A DNA stretch of 64,000 bases from Myxococcus sp. (lineage in GTDB: Bacteria; Myxococcota; Myxococcia; Myxococcales; Myxococcaceae), in the NCBI GenBank assembly GCA_014879945.1, contig JACSRE010000437.1, positions 62,001 to 126,000 of the forward strand, read 5' to 3'. The first letter of the stretch is position 1, and each line of letters begins with the position of its first letter. The notes under the pieces are model-generated. The model did no database searches. It had not been told where the DNA came from and saw nothing but the letters and a program-made list of their open reading frames with translations. This document shows, in pieces, positions 1,226-13,143 of the stretch. The position numbers were made by a program, and so were the translations under genes.

Positions 1226-2737
1226 ATGACGACGCGACGCCCGGACTCTGGTGGTGAGGTGCTGGCGGCGATCGACGTCGGCACCAACGCCGTGCGCCTC
1301 GAGATCGCCATGGCGTTCGCGGACGGCACCCTCGAGACGCTGCACACCGAGCGAGACCCGGTGCGGCCGGGCGAGGGGCTGTTCAAGACGGGCGTCATCT
1401 CGAAAGAGGTGGCCGGGCGGCTGGTGTCGACGCTCCGGCGCTACGCGGTGGTGTGCAAGCGGCACGGCGCCCGCGTTCGCGCCGTCGCCACCAGCGCGCT
1501 GCGGGAGGCGAAGAACCGCGACGAGATCGTGCGGCGGGTCAAGCGCGAGGCCGGCGTCACCCTCGACGTGGTGTCGGGGCGTGAAGAGGCGCGCCTCATC
1601 TGCCTGGGGGTGCTGGCCGGCAAGCCCGAGGGCCAGCGCGCGCTGTGCATCGACATCGGCGGCGGCAGCACCGAGGTGATCTCGGCGCTCGGGGAGCAGC
1701 CCAAAGAGCTCTGGAGCGTCGACATCGGCGCGGTGCGGCTGACCGAGTTGTTCGAGGTCAAGGGCGAGGTGCCCCGGCGCCAGCTCACCCTGATGCGCTC
1801 GTTCGTCCGTGAGCTGATGGAGGAGTCGATTCCCCACGGGGTGGGCGGGCTGCCGCGCACCGCGCTGGGCTCGAGCGGCACCATCGGCGCCGTCGTCACC
1901 CACGCGCGCTCCGAGGGCGTGGGCCACGCCACCCTGCTCGAGGTCTCGCGCACCGTCGAGGCGCTGGCGGACATGGATCTGGCCAAGCGGCGCAAGCGCT
2001 TCGACCCGCGGCGCGCCGACATCGTCACCGCGGGCGCGGTGATCCTCGAGTCGGTGATGAAGCACCTGAAGGTGCAGTCGGTGACCGCCGTCGATCGCGG
2101 CCTGCGCGAGGGCGTGCTGGTCGATCTGGTGCGCCGCAAGAAGCAGCAGGCCGGCGAGGTGTCGTTCGCCGACGCCGCCATCGCCGTGGGGCGCCGCTTC
2201 GGCTTCGGAGAGGCCCACGGGCGCCAGGTGGCGAAGCTGGCGCTGACGTTGTTCGACGCGCTGGGCCCGGTGCACAAGCTGCCCGCCGCCGCGCGCCCCT
2301 GGCTCGAGGCCGCGGCGCTGCTCCACGACATCGGGCACGCGGTGAACTACCAGCGGCACCACAAGCACGCCTTCTACCTGATCTCGAACGTCGATCTGCC
2401 GGGCCTGTCTGACCGCGAGCGGCTGATGGTGGCCACCATCGCGCGCTTTCACCGCCGCACCGCGCCGGAGCTCACCCACGAGCTGATGGCGCCGTTCACG
2501 CCGACCGAGCGCCGCGTCGTGCGCCGGTGCGCCACGCTGCTGCGCGTCGCCGACTCGCTCGATCGCAGCCACCACCAGCCGGTGCAGCAGTTGCAGCTGG
2601 CGTCGAGGGGCCGCACGGTGTGGCTCAAGGTGAAGTCGCGGCAGTCCATCGATCTCGAGTTGTGGGACGTCGAGCACGAGGTCGGCCTCTTTCGCGAGGT
2701 GTTCGGCCGCGCGTTGGTCGTCACTGGGGCTCGCTGA
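1226..2737 (+). CDS. ppx: exopolyphosphatase / pppGpp phosphatase (Ppx/GppA) with C-terminal HD domain
   Basis: This predicted cytoplasmic enzyme releases phosphate from polyphosphate ends and/or converts pppGpp to ppGpp. The 503-residue product is close to the length of E. coli Ppx. It starts with the ASKHA phosphate-binding motif AIDVGTNAVRLEIA, carries the second motif CIDIGGGSTEVIS near residue 140, and ends with an HD-type domain (LLHDIGHAVNY, then HHKHAFYLI). I chose the ATG at 1226 because the AIDVGTNAVR motif begins shortly after it; the open frame upstream runs into ppk's control region. Whether it prefers poly-P or pppGpp cannot be read from sequence, but the divergent ppk favours poly-P. 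Confidence 0.92.
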   Translation: MTTRRPDSGGEVLAAIDVGTNAVRLEIAMAFADGTLETLHTERDPVRPGEGLFKTGVISKEVAGRLVSTLRRYAVVCKRHGARVRAVATSALREAKNRDEIVRRVKREAGVTLDVVSGREEARLICLGVLAGKPEGQRALCIDIGGGSTEVISALGEQPKELWSVDIGAVRLTELFEVKGEVPRRQLTLMRSFVRELMEESIPHGVGGLPRTALGSSGTIGAVVTHARSEGVGHATLLEVSRTVEALADMDLAKRRKRFDPRRADIVTAGAVILESVMKHLKVQSVTAVDRGLREGVLVDLVRRKKQQAGEVSFADAAIAVGRRFGFGEAHGRQVAKLALTLFDALGPVHKLPAAARPWLEAAALLHDIGHAVNYQRHHKHAFYLISNVDLPGLSDRERLMVATIARFHRRTAPELTHELMAPFTPTERRVVRRCATLLRVADSLDRSHHQPVQQLQLASRGRTVWLKVKSRQSIDLELWDVEHEVGLFREVFGRALVVTGAR

Positions 2738-2741
2738 CGGC

Positions 2742-3533
2742 TCACGCCAGCGTCAGGGCGCGCAGCGGCGCCTGCCAGTGCTGGGGGCTGGGCCGTGGCC
2801 TTTGGGTCACCTGCACCCAGCGCGGCTCGGTCAGCAGCGCTCCGTGATCGAGCAAGAAGGTACGAAACGCGCCCAGCGCGGTGGTGCTCCCGGCGTTGAA
2901 GATGCGCAGCGGGCGCGCGCCCTCGGCGTCGACGACGAACTGCCGCGGCACGTGGCGGTGGCCGTGCAGCACGAGGTCGCAGCGCCCCCGCAGCACCTTC
3001 AGCAGCGCGGTGCCCAGCGCGAGCTCCGAGTGGTTGGGCAGCCCCAGCACCTCTGAGACGTGCTCCCAGAAGCCCTCGGCTGGCAGCGGCACGACGTGGT
3101 GGTGCAGGGCCACCACCGTCGTCAGCCCCCGCGGCACGCGCGCGAGCGCCTCGTCGATCAGCCGCAGCACGTCGTCGCAGAGCCGCCCGTGGCTGAGCCA
3201 GGCGACGCGGTTGTGGGGGGCGGTGGAGTCGACTCGCACGATCGCGCAGCCCTCGCGCAGCTGGAGATCGACGCGTGCGCCGCTCATCAGCGCGCTGCCG
3301 AGATCGTCGCCGCACCGATCGTGATTGCCCGGCACCACCACCAGGCGGTCGCCCAGGGGCGCGGTCAGGCGGTGGAAGGTGGAGAGATCGGCGGCGCGGC
3401 CCCCGTCGGTCAGGTCGCCGGTCACCACCACCAGCTCGCGGCCCGAGAGGGTCGCGACGGCGTCTTCCAGCGTTCTGGGCGCCAGCGGCGAGGCGCCCAG
3501 GTGAAGATCCGACAGGTGGGCGATGGTGATCAT
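2742..3533 (-). CDS. calcineurin-like metallophosphoesterase
   Basis: A 263-residue metallophosphoesterase of the Icc/CpdA-like type that hydrolyses phosphomono- or phosphodiesters with a two-metal centre. All signature blocks are visible in order: SDLHLG at the N-terminus, GDLTDGG, PGNHDRCGDD, ALHHH and HGHRHVP. The ATG at 3533 places the first metal motif seven residues in; a longer frame adds only a Pro-rich stretch. It has no signal peptide, so it is cytoplasmic. It is the last gene of a minus-strand run with phoB/phoR-like genes and converges on ppx with a 4-bp gap. The substrate is unknown; a cyclic nucleotide or phosphoester role is only inference. Confidence 0.85.
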   Translation of the reverse strand: MITIAHLSDLHLGASPLAPRTLEDAVATLSGRELVVVTGDLTDGGRAADLSTFHRLTAPLGDRLVVVPGNHDRCGDDLGSALMSGARVDLQLREGCAIVRVDSTAPHNRVAWLSHGRLCDDVLRLIDEALARVPRGLTTVVALHHHVVPLPAEGFWEHVSEVLGLPNHSELALGTALLKVLRGRCDLVLHGHRHVPRQFVVDAEGARPLRIFNAGSTTALGAFRTFLLDHGALLTEPRWVQVTQRPRPSPQHWQAPLRALTLA

Positions 3534-3549
3534 CGGCGGGCTCCTCGGC

Positions 3550-4248
<699 letters not shown>

Positions 4249-4335
4249 GCGCGGGTGATAGGCCGCGCGTTCGACGAGGTGATGGCTCGCCCGTGACAAG
4301 CCCCGCCCCGTCGTGTGACGGGCCGGTGTCTGGCG

Positions 4336-5376
4336 TCAGGTGCCGGTCTCGGGCTCCGCGTCGGCGTGGGGGCCGTGCGAGGGGTCCACGTGCTCGCCCG
4401 AGCTCTCGGCGCTGCTGGCCTCGGTCTCGGCCGGCACGTCGGTGCGGGTGGGCAGCTCCAGGCGCGCGAGCACCTCGTCGGCGGCCTCGTCGGCGCGAAT
4501 GGCGTCTCCGGGCGTGAGCGGCTCGAGGCCGGGAGGCGGGGGCAGCGCAGGCGCGACCTGGCCCAGGGCCTTGAGGTGTGAGGGCGCGCCCGGGGGCGGC
4601 TTGAGGTAGGGCGGCAGGCCCGAGTGACGGCGCGCGGCCTGGGCCATCAGCTCGTGGTGGCGGTAGCGGCACTCGAGCATCTTGTGGATGAGCAGCGACG
4701 CGCCCGGCACCTTGCGCTCCTGCAGGCCCGAGGTGGCGCGGCGCACCGCGTAGCGCACCCGGCGAATCTGCACCCGCCAGCCCCGCGGCGTCCACGTGAA
4801 GAGGCCCCAGGCGGGCCGCAGGTCGCCGTCTCGCGGAATGCCGGCCGAGGCGACGTCGGCGATCACCATGCGCCCGAGCCGCCGGCGATAGGGGAAGTGC
4901 AGGTGCCCGAAGGCCAGCGCCGCGGCGTCGAGGTGCCCGAGCAGGCGCCTGAGCGTGTGATCGTCGAGGGTCGGCTCGAGCGAGTCTTCGAGGTTGCGCG
5001 GGTTGGCGTGGCAGACGAACAGATCTTGCCCCTTGCGAGGCGAGTAGCGCACCGAGAAGGCCAGCTGCCCCAGGCGGGCGGTCTTCTCGGCGCCGAGCTG
5101 ATCGCGGCTCCACTCGAGGAGGTTGCGCTTCCAGTGGTCGCGCTCGCGGTAGGCGCCCGACAGGTAGTTGCCCGAGAGGTAGCAGTCGGTGTTGCCCATC
5201 AGCAGGTCATCGCAGGCGTCGTCGAGCAGCTCGAAGGTCTCTCGGGGCCAGGCGCCGCGCAGGCAGAGATCGCCCGCGGCCACGATGTAGTCGGGGCTCT
5301 GGCGCTTGATGTCCTCGAGCACCGCTTCGCAGGCCGGCAGGTTTCCGTGAATGTCAGCCAGCACCGCCACGCGCAT
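4336..5376 (-). CDS. metallophosphoesterase family protein with charged C-terminal tail
   Basis: A 346-residue calcineurin-like phosphoesterase of the YfcE/ApaH-like branch. Visible motifs are LADIHGNLPACEAVL at the start, GDLCLRG, MGNTDCYLSG (the Asn block), CHANPRN and AFGHLHFPYRR (GH metal block). The catalytic domain ends near residue 215. A linker follows, then a Pro/Glu-rich tail from about residue 265 that ends in acidic, probably disordered sequence. It has no signal peptide. It sits 12 bp downstream of the PhoR-like kinase and is probably co-transcribed with it. The substrate cannot be told from sequence. Confidence 0.85.
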   Translation of the reverse strand: MRVAVLADIHGNLPACEAVLEDIKRQSPDYIVAAGDLCLRGAWPRETFELLDDACDDLLMGNTDCYLSGNYLSGAYRERDHWKRNLLEWSRDQLGAEKTARLGQLAFSVRYSPRKGQDLFVCHANPRNLEDSLEPTLDDHTLRRLLGHLDAAALAFGHLHFPYRRRLGRMVIADVASAGIPRDGDLRPAWGLFTWTPRGWRVQIRRVRYAVRRATSGLQERKVPGASLLIHKMLECRYRHHELMAQAARRHSGLPPYLKPPPGAPSHLKALGQVAPALPPPPGLEPLTPGDAIRADEAADEVLARLELPTRTDVPAETEASSAESSGEHVDPSHGPHADAEPETGT

Positions 5377-5388
5377 CGCGGGCGCATC

Positions 5389-6495
5389 CTAGCTTGAGGC
5401 GGGGCTATTCCCAGCAACCTCGGGCGCGACGGGCAGGGTGACGAAGAAGGTGCTGCCCTGGCCGGGGGCGCTCTCGACGCGCACGTCGCCCTTCATCGCC
5501 GTGACGAGGTGCTTCACGATCGACAGGCCCAGGCCCGTGCCGCCCATGTCGCGGCTGCGGCCCTTGTCCACCCGGTAGAAGCGCTCGAAGAGGCGGGGCA
5601 GGTGGCGCGCCTCGATGCCGGGGCCGTCGTCCTTCACCGTCAGCTCGACCTGCGCGCCCGCGCGGCGGGCGTGCACCCACACGTGGCCGTTGAGCGGCGT
5701 GTACTTGACCGCGTTGTCGAGGAGGTTGAGCACCACCTGCTCGACCCCCCGGGGGTCGGCCAGCACGAAGAGCTCGGGCGACACCTCGATCACCAGCTCG
5801 GTGTTGCGCGCCCGGGCCTTGGGGCGCACCGCCTCGGAGGCGCCGAGCGCGGCCATGGCCAGGTTGATGGGCTTCTCGAGCAGCTGCAGCTCGCGCGACT
5901 CGAGCCGCGAGAGCTCGAGCAGATCCTCCACCAGCTCCGAGAGGCGCTCCGATTGGCGGTGGATGATGTCGACCATCTTCGGCGCCGCGGCCGGGTCGCT
6001 CAGCGCGCCCGACAGCAGCGTCTCGGCGTACCCACGAATCGCGGTCACCGGCGTGCGCAGCTCGTGGCTGACGTTGGCCACGAAGTCCTTGCGCACCTTC
6101 TCGAGGCGGCGCAGCTCGGTGACGTCGAAGAACACCGCCGAGCTGCCGCCGAGATCGTGCCCGAGCGGCGAGACGTGCACCGACACCACGCGCGGGCGCA
6201 CGCCCTCGAGGTTGAGCTCGAGCCGGCTCGAGGTGTGCTCCCGGCAGGCGCGCTCGACGGCCTGCTGGAGCTCGTCGCTCTCGACGATCTCTCCGGCCTT
6301 GTGGCCCACCAGCGCGGTGCCCGAGAAGAGCAGCTCCTTGAGCGCGTTGTTGTGCTCGACGACGGTGCCGTCTTCGCTGGTGACCCACACGCCCTCGGCC
6401 ATGCCGTCGATCACCGCCCGCAGCACCGCCAGCGCGCGCGACACCTCGTTCACCGGGCCCGGGTCGGCGCTCGCAGTGGCGATGAGGTTCTTCAT
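5389..6495 (-). CDS. phoR: PhoR-like sensor histidine kinase, soluble, with PAS domain
   Basis: A 368-residue kinase. Residues about 20-128 form a PAS-like sensor (VIDGMAEGVWVTSEDG, then VFFDVTELRR). The DHp domain has the phospho-acceptor His144 in NVSHELRTPVTAI. The HATPase domain has an N box (LLDNAVKYTP), G1 (KDDGPGIEARHL) and G2 (MGGTGLGLSIVKH). It closely resembles PhoR but lacks the N-terminal membrane helices that E. coli and B. subtilis PhoR have, so the signal must come from inside the cell or through a partner. It is 10 bp downstream of the phoB-like gene, as expected for a cognate pair. The phosphate role is inferred from resemblance and from neighbouring ppk/ppx. Confidence 0.88.
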   Translation of the reverse strand: MKNLIATASADPGPVNEVSRALAVLRAVIDGMAEGVWVTSEDGTVVEHNNALKELLFSGTALVGHKAGEIVESDELQQAVERACREHTSSRLELNLEGVRPRVVSVHVSPLGHDLGGSSAVFFDVTELRRLEKVRKDFVANVSHELRTPVTAIRGYAETLLSGALSDPAAAPKMVDIIHRQSERLSELVEDLLELSRLESRELQLLEKPINLAMAALGASEAVRPKARARNTELVIEVSPELFVLADPRGVEQVVLNLLDNAVKYTPLNGHVWVHARRAGAQVELTVKDDGPGIEARHLPRLFERFYRVDKGRSRDMGGTGLGLSIVKHLVTAMKGDVRVESAPGQGSTFFVTLPVAPEVAGNSPASS

Positions 6496-11103: not shown

Positions 11104-12039
11104 ATGGGTTCGGTGGCGTTCGTGTTTCCAGGGCAGGGCAGTCAGTCGGTCGGCATGGGCAAGGCGCTCGCCGAGGCGTTCCCCGAAGCGAAGGCCGTGT
11201 TCGACGCGGCTGACGATGCGCTGGGCGAGAAGCTCTCGACGTTGTGCTTCGAGGGCCCGGAGGACGCGCTCAAGCTGACGGCGAACACGCAGCCCGCGAT
11301 CCTCACCGTGTCGATCGCCGCGCACGCCGTGTTCACGAAGCGGTTTGCCACCGCGCCGGCGTTCGTCGCGGGCCACTCCCTCGGTGAGTACTCGGCGCTG
11401 GTCGCGGCTGGAGCGATGTCGCTCGCCGACGCCGTTCGCGCCGTTCGCGCGCGAGGAACGTTCATGCAGGAGGCCGTGCCGGCGGGCGTCGGCGCGATGT
11501 CGGCGGTGCTGGGTCTGGCTCCCGAGAAGGTCGCCGAGCTGTGCCGCGAGGCCGCGCAGGGCGAGATCGTCTCGTGCGCGAACTTCAACGAGCCTTCGCA
11601 GACGGTGATCGCCGGCCACGCGGCGGCGGTCGAGCGGGCAGGGGTGCTGCTCAAAGCGGCAGGGGCGAAGCGGGTGTTGCCGCTGCCGGTGAGCGCGCCG
11701 TTCCACTGTGAGCTGATGGCGCCGGTCGTGCCGCGGCTCGACGCGGTGCTGTCGACGATCACCTTCAAGGCGCCGACGGTGCCGGTGGTGACGAACGTCG
11801 AGGCCACGCCCAACGCCGATGCCTCGAAGGTGAAGGCCCTGTTGCTGCGCCAGGTGACCGGCTCGGTGCGGTGGATCGAGTGTGTCCAGGCGCTCGAGCA
11901 GGCCGGTGTGACCAGGGTCGTCGAGCTTGGGCCGGGCAAGGTGCTCTCTGGCCTCGTCAAGCGCATCGCCAAGGGCCTCGAGTGCGTCAACGTGGAAGAT
12001 CCCCCGAGCCTCGAGAAGGCGCTCGCAGCCGCGCCGTAG
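11104..12039 (+). CDS. fabD: malonyl-CoA:ACP transacylase
   Basis: Transfers malonyl from CoA to acyl carrier protein. The 311-residue product opens with FVFPGQGSQSVGMG, has the nucleophile Ser92 in GHSLGEYSAL and the partner His201 in PFHCELM, and ends with the GPGKVLSGLVKR segment. A GAGGAG ribosome-binding site lies about 7 bp before the ATG. It follows fabH by 39 bp on the same strand and converges with the Kunitz lipoprotein gene with a 3-bp gap. Confidence 0.96.
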   Translation: MGSVAFVFPGQGSQSVGMGKALAEAFPEAKAVFDAADDALGEKLSTLCFEGPEDALKLTANTQPAILTVSIAAHAVFTKRFATAPAFVAGHSLGEYSALVAAGAMSLADAVRAVRARGTFMQEAVPAGVGAMSAVLGLAPEKVAELCREAAQGEIVSCANFNEPSQTVIAGHAAAVERAGVLLKAAGAKRVLPLPVSAPFHCELMAPVVPRLDAVLSTITFKAPTVPVVTNVEATPNADASKVKALLLRQVTGSVRWIECVQALEQAGVTRVVELGPGKVLSGLVKRIAKGLECVNVEDPPSLEKALAAAP

Positions 12040-12042
12040 CGT

Positions 12043-12264
12043 TCACCCTCCGCAGATCTGGCGGCACTCCTCGAGGGTGTCGAACGGAACGACGCCGTCG
12101 CAGCCGCCCCACGTGAACACTGCGCACCGCCTGGTGGAGGCGTCGAAGTACGCTTTGGGGACCGCGGCCCGGCAGGGGCCCGGCTCAGGCGCGCGGCTGC
12201 AGCGCCCGTCACAACCGGCGAGCGTCAGCGCGGCGAGCAGCCACCAGGTCGAGTGCGAAAGCAT
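12043..12264 (-). CDS. Kunitz/BPTI-domain lipoprotein
   Basis: A 73-residue product with a lipoprotein signal peptide (lipobox LAGC, lipidated Cys18) and then essentially one Kunitz/BPTI serine-protease-inhibitor domain. All six cysteines are present: 22, 31, 47, 55, 67 and 71. The numbers of residues between them are 8, 15, 7, 11 and 3, against 8, 15, 7, 12 and 3 in BPTI. GPCRA gives the reactive-site loop with Arg32 at P1, typical of trypsin inhibitors, and YFD, FTWGGCDG and the EEC xxx C ending follow the family. It is encoded opposite to, and between, fabD and fabG. The likely role is inhibiting a trypsin-like protease at the cell surface; the target is unknown. Confidence 0.82.
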   Translation of the reverse strand: MLSHSTWWLLAALTLAGCDGRCSRAPEPGPCRAAVPKAYFDASTRRCAVFTWGGCDGVVPFDTLEECRQICGG

Positions 12265-12396
12265 TTGTGCAGTCTGCCCGGAGTGCGAACGAACTTCTCC
12301 ACCTGCCGCCCTCGACATCGGGCTGATCACTCCGTAAACGGCGCGCAGTGAAGGGTCCCCGGTTTGCACGGGGGGCCGCGCCTCCAGGAGCGTGCG

Positions 12397-13143
12397 ATGA
12401 AGGACTTCAACCAGAAGGTCGTGCTCGTCACCGGCGGCTCGCGCGGCATCGGCCGGGCGATCGCGCTCGAGTTCGCCTCGCGCGGCGCCACCGTCGTCAT
12501 CACCTACGCCGGCAACGAAGCGGCGGCGATCGAGACCATCAAGCTGCTCACCGACACCGGCGTGAAGGCCCAGGCCAAGCGCTTCGACGTCAGCGACCCC
12601 GCGGCCTGCTCGGCCTGCATCGACGAGGTGATGCGGGAGCACGGCCGCCTCGACGTGCTGGTGAACAACGCCGGCGTCGCCATCGACGGCCTGTTGATGC
12701 GCTTCAAGGACGACGACTGGGACAAGACGCTCGACACCAACCTCAAGGGCGCCTTCTCGCTGATGCGCGCCGCCAGCCGGCCGATGATGAAGGCCAGGGG
12801 CGGCGCCATCGTGAACGTCTCGAGCATCGTCGGAGAGATGGGCAACGGCGGCCAGGCGGCCTACGCGGCGTCGAAGGCGGGCCTCATCGGCCTCACCAAG
12901 GCCGTCGCCAAAGAGCTCTCGTCACGGAACATTCGCGTCAACGCCGTCACCCCGGGCTTCATCACCACCGACATGACCGCGGCGCTCAACGACGAGCTGA
13001 AGGCCAAGATGGCCGACGCCATTCCCCTGGGCCGCATCGGGAACCCCGAAGAGGTCGCCAAGGCCGTTGCTTTCCTCGCCTCGGACGCCGCCAGCTACAT
13101 CACCGGCGAGGTCCTGAAGGTGAACGGCGGCATGTACATGTAG
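12397..13143 (+). CDS. fabG: 3-oxoacyl-ACP reductase
   Basis: NADPH-dependent SDR enzyme that reduces 3-oxoacyl-ACP. The 248-residue product has the cofactor motif TGGSRGIG, the structural NNAG, and the catalytic Ser142/143, Tyr156 and Lys160 (NVSSIVGE, then YAASK). It ends in [13 protein letters not shown], typical of FabG. The ATG at 12397 sits about 7 bp after a CCAGGAG ribosome-binding site. It is separated from fabD by about 357 bp holding the opposite-strand Kunitz gene, so it may have its own promoter in 12265-12396. Confidence 0.96.

Follow-up and report, generated by a model that had tools for sequence, protein, structure and literature searches.

The window, the whole stretch of 64,000 nucleotides analysed here, contains a small gene (P0001) whose product is almost certainly a lipoprotein carrying a Kunitz domain. 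P0001 is a real, inherited gene under purifying selection. By its sequence, the protein belongs to a new, short-loop bacterial form of the domain, with a Cys4-Cys5 segment of 11 residues in place of 12 and a GxVPF motif. In textbooks the Kunitz domain is an inhibitor from animals, and P0001 is probably a protease inhibitor as well. The fuller statement, that it would be a membrane-tethered canonical inhibitor of outside serine proteases, is put forward with somewhat less assurance. In the open-access literature, with most subscription papers outside its scope, no paper was found that treats a Kunitz lipoprotein of bacteria, or Kunitz domains in Alcanivorax or myxobacteria. One paper describes pacifastins, an unrelated family, in myxobacteria (PMC13388995), and a term search of another (PMC12620975) returned no mention of Kunitz. 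The features discussed are collected in Table 1.

Table 1. The Kunitz lipoprotein gene, its parts and its surroundings, in window positions.
Feature	Positions	Strand	Basis
Kunitz lipoprotein gene P0001	12043..12264	-	translation, PF00014 score, orthologues, dN/dS
Lipoprotein signal peptide (predicted), residues 1-17, MLSHSTWWLLAALTLAG	12214..12264	-	motif judged by eye
Lipobox LAGC, residues 15-18; Cys18 the predicted lipid-bearing residue	12211..12222	-	translation; orthologues keep the lipobox
Kunitz domain, Cys22-Cys71	12052..12201	-	Pfam, predicted structure, cysteine spacing
P1 residue Arg32	12169..12171	-	alignments
Shortened Cys4-Cys5 segment DGVVPFDTLEE, 11 residues, without the NxNNF-type Asn	12067..12099	-	sequence comparison
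fabD (malonyl-CoA-ACP transacylase), convergent neighbour	11104..12039	+	name by sequence recognition, no family search
fabG (3-oxoacyl-ACP reductase), divergent neighbour	12397..13143	+	name by sequence recognition
fabG upstream element GTGCGAAAGCATTTGTGCA, containing the Kunitz start codon on the opposite strand	12253..12271	+	kept in 6/6 genus genomes aligned
Second conserved block upstream of fabG, GTGCGAACGAACTTC	12283..12297	+	genus alignment

The open reading frame runs from an ATG at 12264 to a TGA stop at 12043 and encodes 73 amino acids, in the exact position opposite fabD and fabG given by an earlier note on this DNA. The source genome (7.7 Mb, 98.67% complete) has a single copy, and a whole-genome search of 14 control genomes returned none. 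Judged by motif, the protein is a lipoprotein: a hydrophobic signal is followed by a lipobox with its invariant Cys, read as VSGC, LAGC and LAGC in the three orthologues. The LAGC motif agrees with the lipoprotein call of the earlier note, which had described the lipobox as clean. That description suits the motif itself and not its surroundings, as the n-region (MLSHSTWW) has neither Lys nor Arg and the first four codons fall within a DNA element that precedes fabG. The lack of a basic residue in the n-region counts against the reading as a tethered inhibitor. So do the absence of any visible Shine-Dalgarno-like sequence ahead of the ATG, and a search for a sigma-70-type promoter of P0001 that found none.

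The mature part is predicted to adopt the Kunitz fold. The only Pfam family found is PF00014 (Kunitz_BPTI), which we take to be MEROPS family I2, with 49.3 bits for a cut-off of 21 (E 5.5e-13, residues 21-71). The six cysteines follow the Kunitz order with a spacing of 8-15-7-11-3, where the canonical-loop domains compared here typically have 8-15-7-12-3, and the P1 residue is the Arg of GPC-R-A. The six BPTI cysteines at near-identical spacing and the P1 Arg in GPCRA had been read beforehand from the letters alone; translation and alignments confirm both, with one residue fewer between Cys4 and Cys5, and the Kunitz assignment itself holds in the HMM score and in the predicted structure. In a sequence search against solved structures (E <= 0.001, 104 distinct sequences), SmCI, TFPI, boophilin and other Kunitz proteins lead the best 60 of 104. 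The AlphaFold2 model, calculated from 21 aligned sequences, has an overall mean pLDDT of 84.6, and about 95-97 by block in residues 21-70. When the top Foldseek chains are re-aligned by VIA-align, the best 50 of 265 are Kunitz domains or BPTI variants throughout (Z 7.6-8.3), including BPTI, APPI, TFPI and other Kunitz domains. Their rmsd is 1.3-2.2 Å over 52-58 residues in these best 50 of 265, except for the first row, in which an alignment beginning inside the signal peptide gives 5.5 Å over 62 residues. NCBIfam gave no match for the window protein or its Alloalcanivorax counterpart, and one insignificant match for that of Hymenobacter.

Among 60 genomes searched (the source genome and its relatives), only G000, G002, G004 and G005 carry the Kunitz gene, four of the seven members of the genus group. 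Each of the four has it between fabD and fabG, in the opposite orientation to both. About 1 kb of additional DNA separates fabD from the Kunitz gene in G004 (L004 495-1495), and is absent from the other three carriers. Without the gene, the fabD-fabG gap measures 156 bases in G006 and 178 in G001; G003, for which the fabD search gave distant matches only, is outside the comparison. In a tree of fabD and fabG from nine genomes, the four carriers group together (98% bootstrap), G006 and, further out, G001 branching off before them, so a single insertion between fabD and fabG is the simplest history. Loss of the gene in G006 and G001 is a possible alternative. The NG86 dN/dS ratios among the carriers are 0.22-0.49 in all six pairs for the Kunitz gene versus 0.08-0.18 for fabD, which means that the gene is constrained, yet evolves faster than its neighbours. 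It is scarcely conceivable that so short a gene, with a domain found mostly in animals, is a spurious frame or eukaryotic contamination, an idea already refuted by the fabD and fabG flanks shared on one contig in four genomes, and opposed by the dN/dS below 1 and the absence of introns.

The beginning of the gene is apparently older than the gene itself. Both blocks upstream of fabG (12253-12297) are shared by carriers and non-carriers of the Kunitz gene, and the fabG-proximal consensus in the six aligned genomes reads GTGCGAAA...TTGTGCA, then GTGCGAACGAA.TTC, then CTCGACA.CGG and CTCCGTAAA. The first block, which also includes Kunitz codons 2-4, has a single match in the window with up to two mismatches, 0.06 being expected in shuffles. 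Since it is kept whether or not the gene is present, the four identical first codons reflect pre-existing DNA, and the invariant MLSH is no evidence of protein constraint. The Kunitz start codon would thus be borrowed from the fabG upstream element. The two blocks are possibly a candidate operator of the fatty-acid synthesis genes.

Domains of the canonical-loop (animal-type) subgroup have a 12-residue Cys4-Cys5 segment with GNxNxF. The window protein has 11 residues and GVVPF, which places it outside this subgroup. One peptide pattern ([RA]C[EAV]xF[TV][WY]GGC), scanned against 84,980 species genomes, yielded 27 stretches, with 21 loci confirmed, a lower bound given that the pattern missed many FIWGGC members. 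Nine of the 21 have the 11-residue segment and GxVPF seen in the window: two in the genus, five in Alcanivorax/Alloalcanivorax (two of them identical), one in Hymenobacter gummosus and one in a deltaproteobacterial MAG. The remaining loci are canonical and have NNF or a variant close to it. Over all loci gathered, a domain pattern recognised 74 distinct domains, of which 39 are short and 35 canonical, omitting L113 and L119 (which have lost cysteines), domains of unusual spacing, the cut-off copy L072 and the frame-broken L021. In the short set, P1 is Arg in 22, Lys in 13, Gln in 2, Met in 1 (Hymenobacter) and Asp in 1 (L031). In the canonical set it is Asp in 16, Glu in 7, Arg in 5, Ala in 2, and Leu, Gly, Lys, Asn and Gln in 1 each. 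An acidic P1 therefore occurs in 23/35 canonical-loop domains versus 1/39 short-loop ones, counts that are not independent because the sequences are related. In ten aligned short-loop rows, the Gly before Cys2, the Ala at P1' and the GGC are invariant. The phylogeny against animal and other bacterial domains, as envisaged in the earlier note, was calculated for 80 Kunitz domains (39 short-loop, 34 canonical bacterial and 7 animal), and does not resolve over its 45 columns, with six loop columns excluded, one canonical row of other length omitted and the end of the Hymenobacter row shortened. A single short-loop clade is neither recovered nor rejected (AU p 0.315), and the same is true of a clade of the animal rows (AU p 0.26), so that the tree speaks neither for nor against transfer from animals. 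Common descent of the short-loop form thus rests on the shared indel and motif.

The form is best represented in the Alcanivoracaceae, a marine oil-degrading family. Here the name stands for the family-level group of an Alloalcanivorax genome and was deduced for it; 38 of the 46 genomes have exactly one Kunitz match. In an order-level sample of 390 genomes, 16 match: 14 were already in the family set, G555 is new and has a short-loop domain, and G606 is broken with stops. P1 is Arg in 24 of the 38 family copies, Lys in 13 and Thr in 1, and this predominance of Arg/Lys (37/38) fits selection for a trypsin-like target. The Cys4-Cys5 segment has 11 residues in 37 copies and 12 in one. Of the copies, 36 have Cys14 as well as Cys38, and both cysteines are replaced in two (G233, which is L119, and G253, which is L113); being kept or lost only together, they fit the 2-4 pairing. 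The lipobox is recognised by pattern in 37/38 copies, and the remaining one (G248) has LNGC. Of the 22 loci whose neighbourhoods were compared, all but L113 and L119 were picked up by motif, leaving 20. A DUF2057 lipoprotein-type gene is directly downstream of the Kunitz gene in 20/20 loci, and an MBL-fold hydrolase gene is clustered upstream in 14/20. In L106, the block at 2626-6371 comprises the MBL hydrolase, an MscS-like domain protein, the Kunitz lipoprotein, a DUF4870-like protein and the DUF2057 lipoprotein, with the Kunitz gene overlapping the DUF4870-like gene by four bases. The conserved neighbours are named only generally, as MBL hydrolase, mechanosensitive-channel domain, DUF4870-like (at or just below cut-off) and DUF2057. 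In the Alcanivoracaceae, the Kunitz gene is an orthologous and long-held one.

The supposed rarity of bacterial Kunitz domains stands for the phylum-level group of the source genome, with matches in 7/195 genomes, and does not stand for the Alcanivoracaceae. The phylum-level group of G202 has matches in 15/282 genomes (drawn evenly), mostly long canonical-loop proteins. In G109, of a sister genus, a Kunitz lipoprotein relative is found at a different locus (L021, 1501-1680), its frame broken near the fourth cysteine by either real decay or a sequencing error; the remainder, translated in another frame, also has a short segment. A tblastn search of phages and plasmids gave no Kunitz match, and a viral-contig scan gave seven matching stretches, none of them confirmed.

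A mechanism can be proposed for the window protein. The signal peptide would be cleaved at Cys18 and Cys18 lipidated, leaving a three-residue linker and then the 50-residue Kunitz domain. Under the E. coli rule, Asp at +2 leads to retention in the inner membrane. In M. xanthus, Lys is at +2 in 8/12 inner-membrane lipoproteins, and Ala at +7 sends FibA to the matrix (PMC3222651). The +2/+7 residues are Asp/Arg in the window protein, Asp/Leu in G005 and Gly/Ala in G002 and G004, so the window protein has neither of the two M. xanthus signals. We prefer the outer membrane, to which the M. xanthus rule would assign P0001; the E. coli rule instead points to the inner one. The anchor would join the domain at its terminus, on the far side from the binding loop, so that the loop would face away from the membrane, free to plug a protease active site. 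In BPTI numbering, this loop is presumably made of Cys14-P1-Ala16 and Gly36-Gly37. Through this loop, an S1-family protease would be reversibly blocked in the canonical lock-and-key manner, and the target would more likely be an outside protease, from prey, a competitor or a grazer, than one of the cell's own.

The candidate targets bear on this choice. Matches to PF00089 (trypsin) occur in 24/24 genomes searched, and Asp at position 189 is what we take to be the mark of trypsin specificity. The source genome has 10 such matches, nine with a readable active-site motif: four have the HtrA-type GNSGG, and the other five GDSGG together with a Gly or Gln at 189. Asp189 is absent from all nine readable matches (of 10), which favours an outside target for an inhibitor with a P1 Arg; at home, this P1 Arg seems to have no evident partner protease. 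In the Alcanivoracaceae, Asp189 is found in 11/11 S1A genes, from 10 genomes. It is unlikely, though it deserves some weight, that P0001 restrains its own envelope or secreted S1 proteases, sparing the cell from enzymes secreted while feeding. The source genome does have its PF00089 matches, including two S1A-like genes in tandem (G000:C205), and every S1A gene read from Alcanivoracaceae Kunitz carriers (8/8 genomes) codes for an Asp189 trypsin, to which a P1 Arg/Lys is naturally suited. Against this, residue 189 is never Asp in the readable matches at home, the Alcanivoracaceae trypsin is also present in G214 and G231, which have no Kunitz gene, and the carrier G254 has just two PF00089 matches, neither of full length. 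The earlier proposal of protection from own trypsin-like proteases is thus not supported, the more so as two of the four orthologues in the genus (G002 and G004) have Gln at P1.

The same P1 changes, with the Met of Hymenobacter and the Asp of L031, mean that trypsin inhibition cannot be general. They lend something to a reading with still poorer prospects, that of a Kunitz scaffold without inhibition, acting as a binder or structural protein of the envelope. Two Alcanivoracaceae copies lack the Cys14-Cys38 pair beside the binding loop, and the non-inhibitory animal Kunitz proteins are a precedent. A scaffold of this kind does not sit well with the invariant P1' Ala and GGC of the short-loop rows, nor with the Arg/Lys retained at P1 across the Alcanivoracaceae. 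A tethered inhibitor of outside proteases is the reading we retain. More tentatively, and with the odds rather against it, the whole set may be seen as a distinct, envelope-anchored bacterial Kunitz lineage. It would consist of single-domain short-loop lipoproteins (WGGCxGxVPF) from at least three phyla, nearly universal in the Alcanivoracaceae beside an Asp189 trypsin, with which they maybe form a trypsin-Kunitz pair. This lineage would have entered the fabD-fabG gap of one Archangium-like clade, taking its start codon from the older fabG upstream element.

A conserved bacterial Kunitz domain that is marked by a diagnostic change in its loop and occurs both in a myxobacterium and in the majority of one family's genomes makes the question of an envelope shield testable, and the same set makes the origin of the Kunitz domain testable. 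It also offers Kunitz scaffolds that have a short loop by nature and a predicted lipid anchor; as a natural experiment, it can show whether Asn43 and the 14-38 disulfide are dispensable.

Compared with BPTI and PF00014, P0001 shares the six cysteines, the predicted fold, the P1' Ala, the GGC segment and the lone domain. It differs by GxVPF where canonical domains have GNxNxF, by a Cys4-Cys5 segment one residue shorter, by the missing canonical Asn (presumably Asn43 of BPTI) and by a Trp at the Tyr35 position. It also has a predicted lipid anchor, whereas BPTI is freely secreted. The multidomain myxobacterial-type proteins (L032, L034-L039 and L084-L094) are likewise bacterial, exported by appearance and equipped with a Kunitz domain, but they have the 12-residue canonical segment and are mostly large, with other Cys-rich stretches. 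Their P1 is mostly Asp or Glu, which could suit Glu/Asp-specific proteases. The folds of Brucella Omp19 and E. coli ecotin are unrelated to that of Kunitz. Both are bacterial envelope inhibitors of outside proteases that resemble P0001 in their proposed working without being its kin, and Omp19 is itself a lipoprotein protease inhibitor guarding the outer membrane (PMC6607954).
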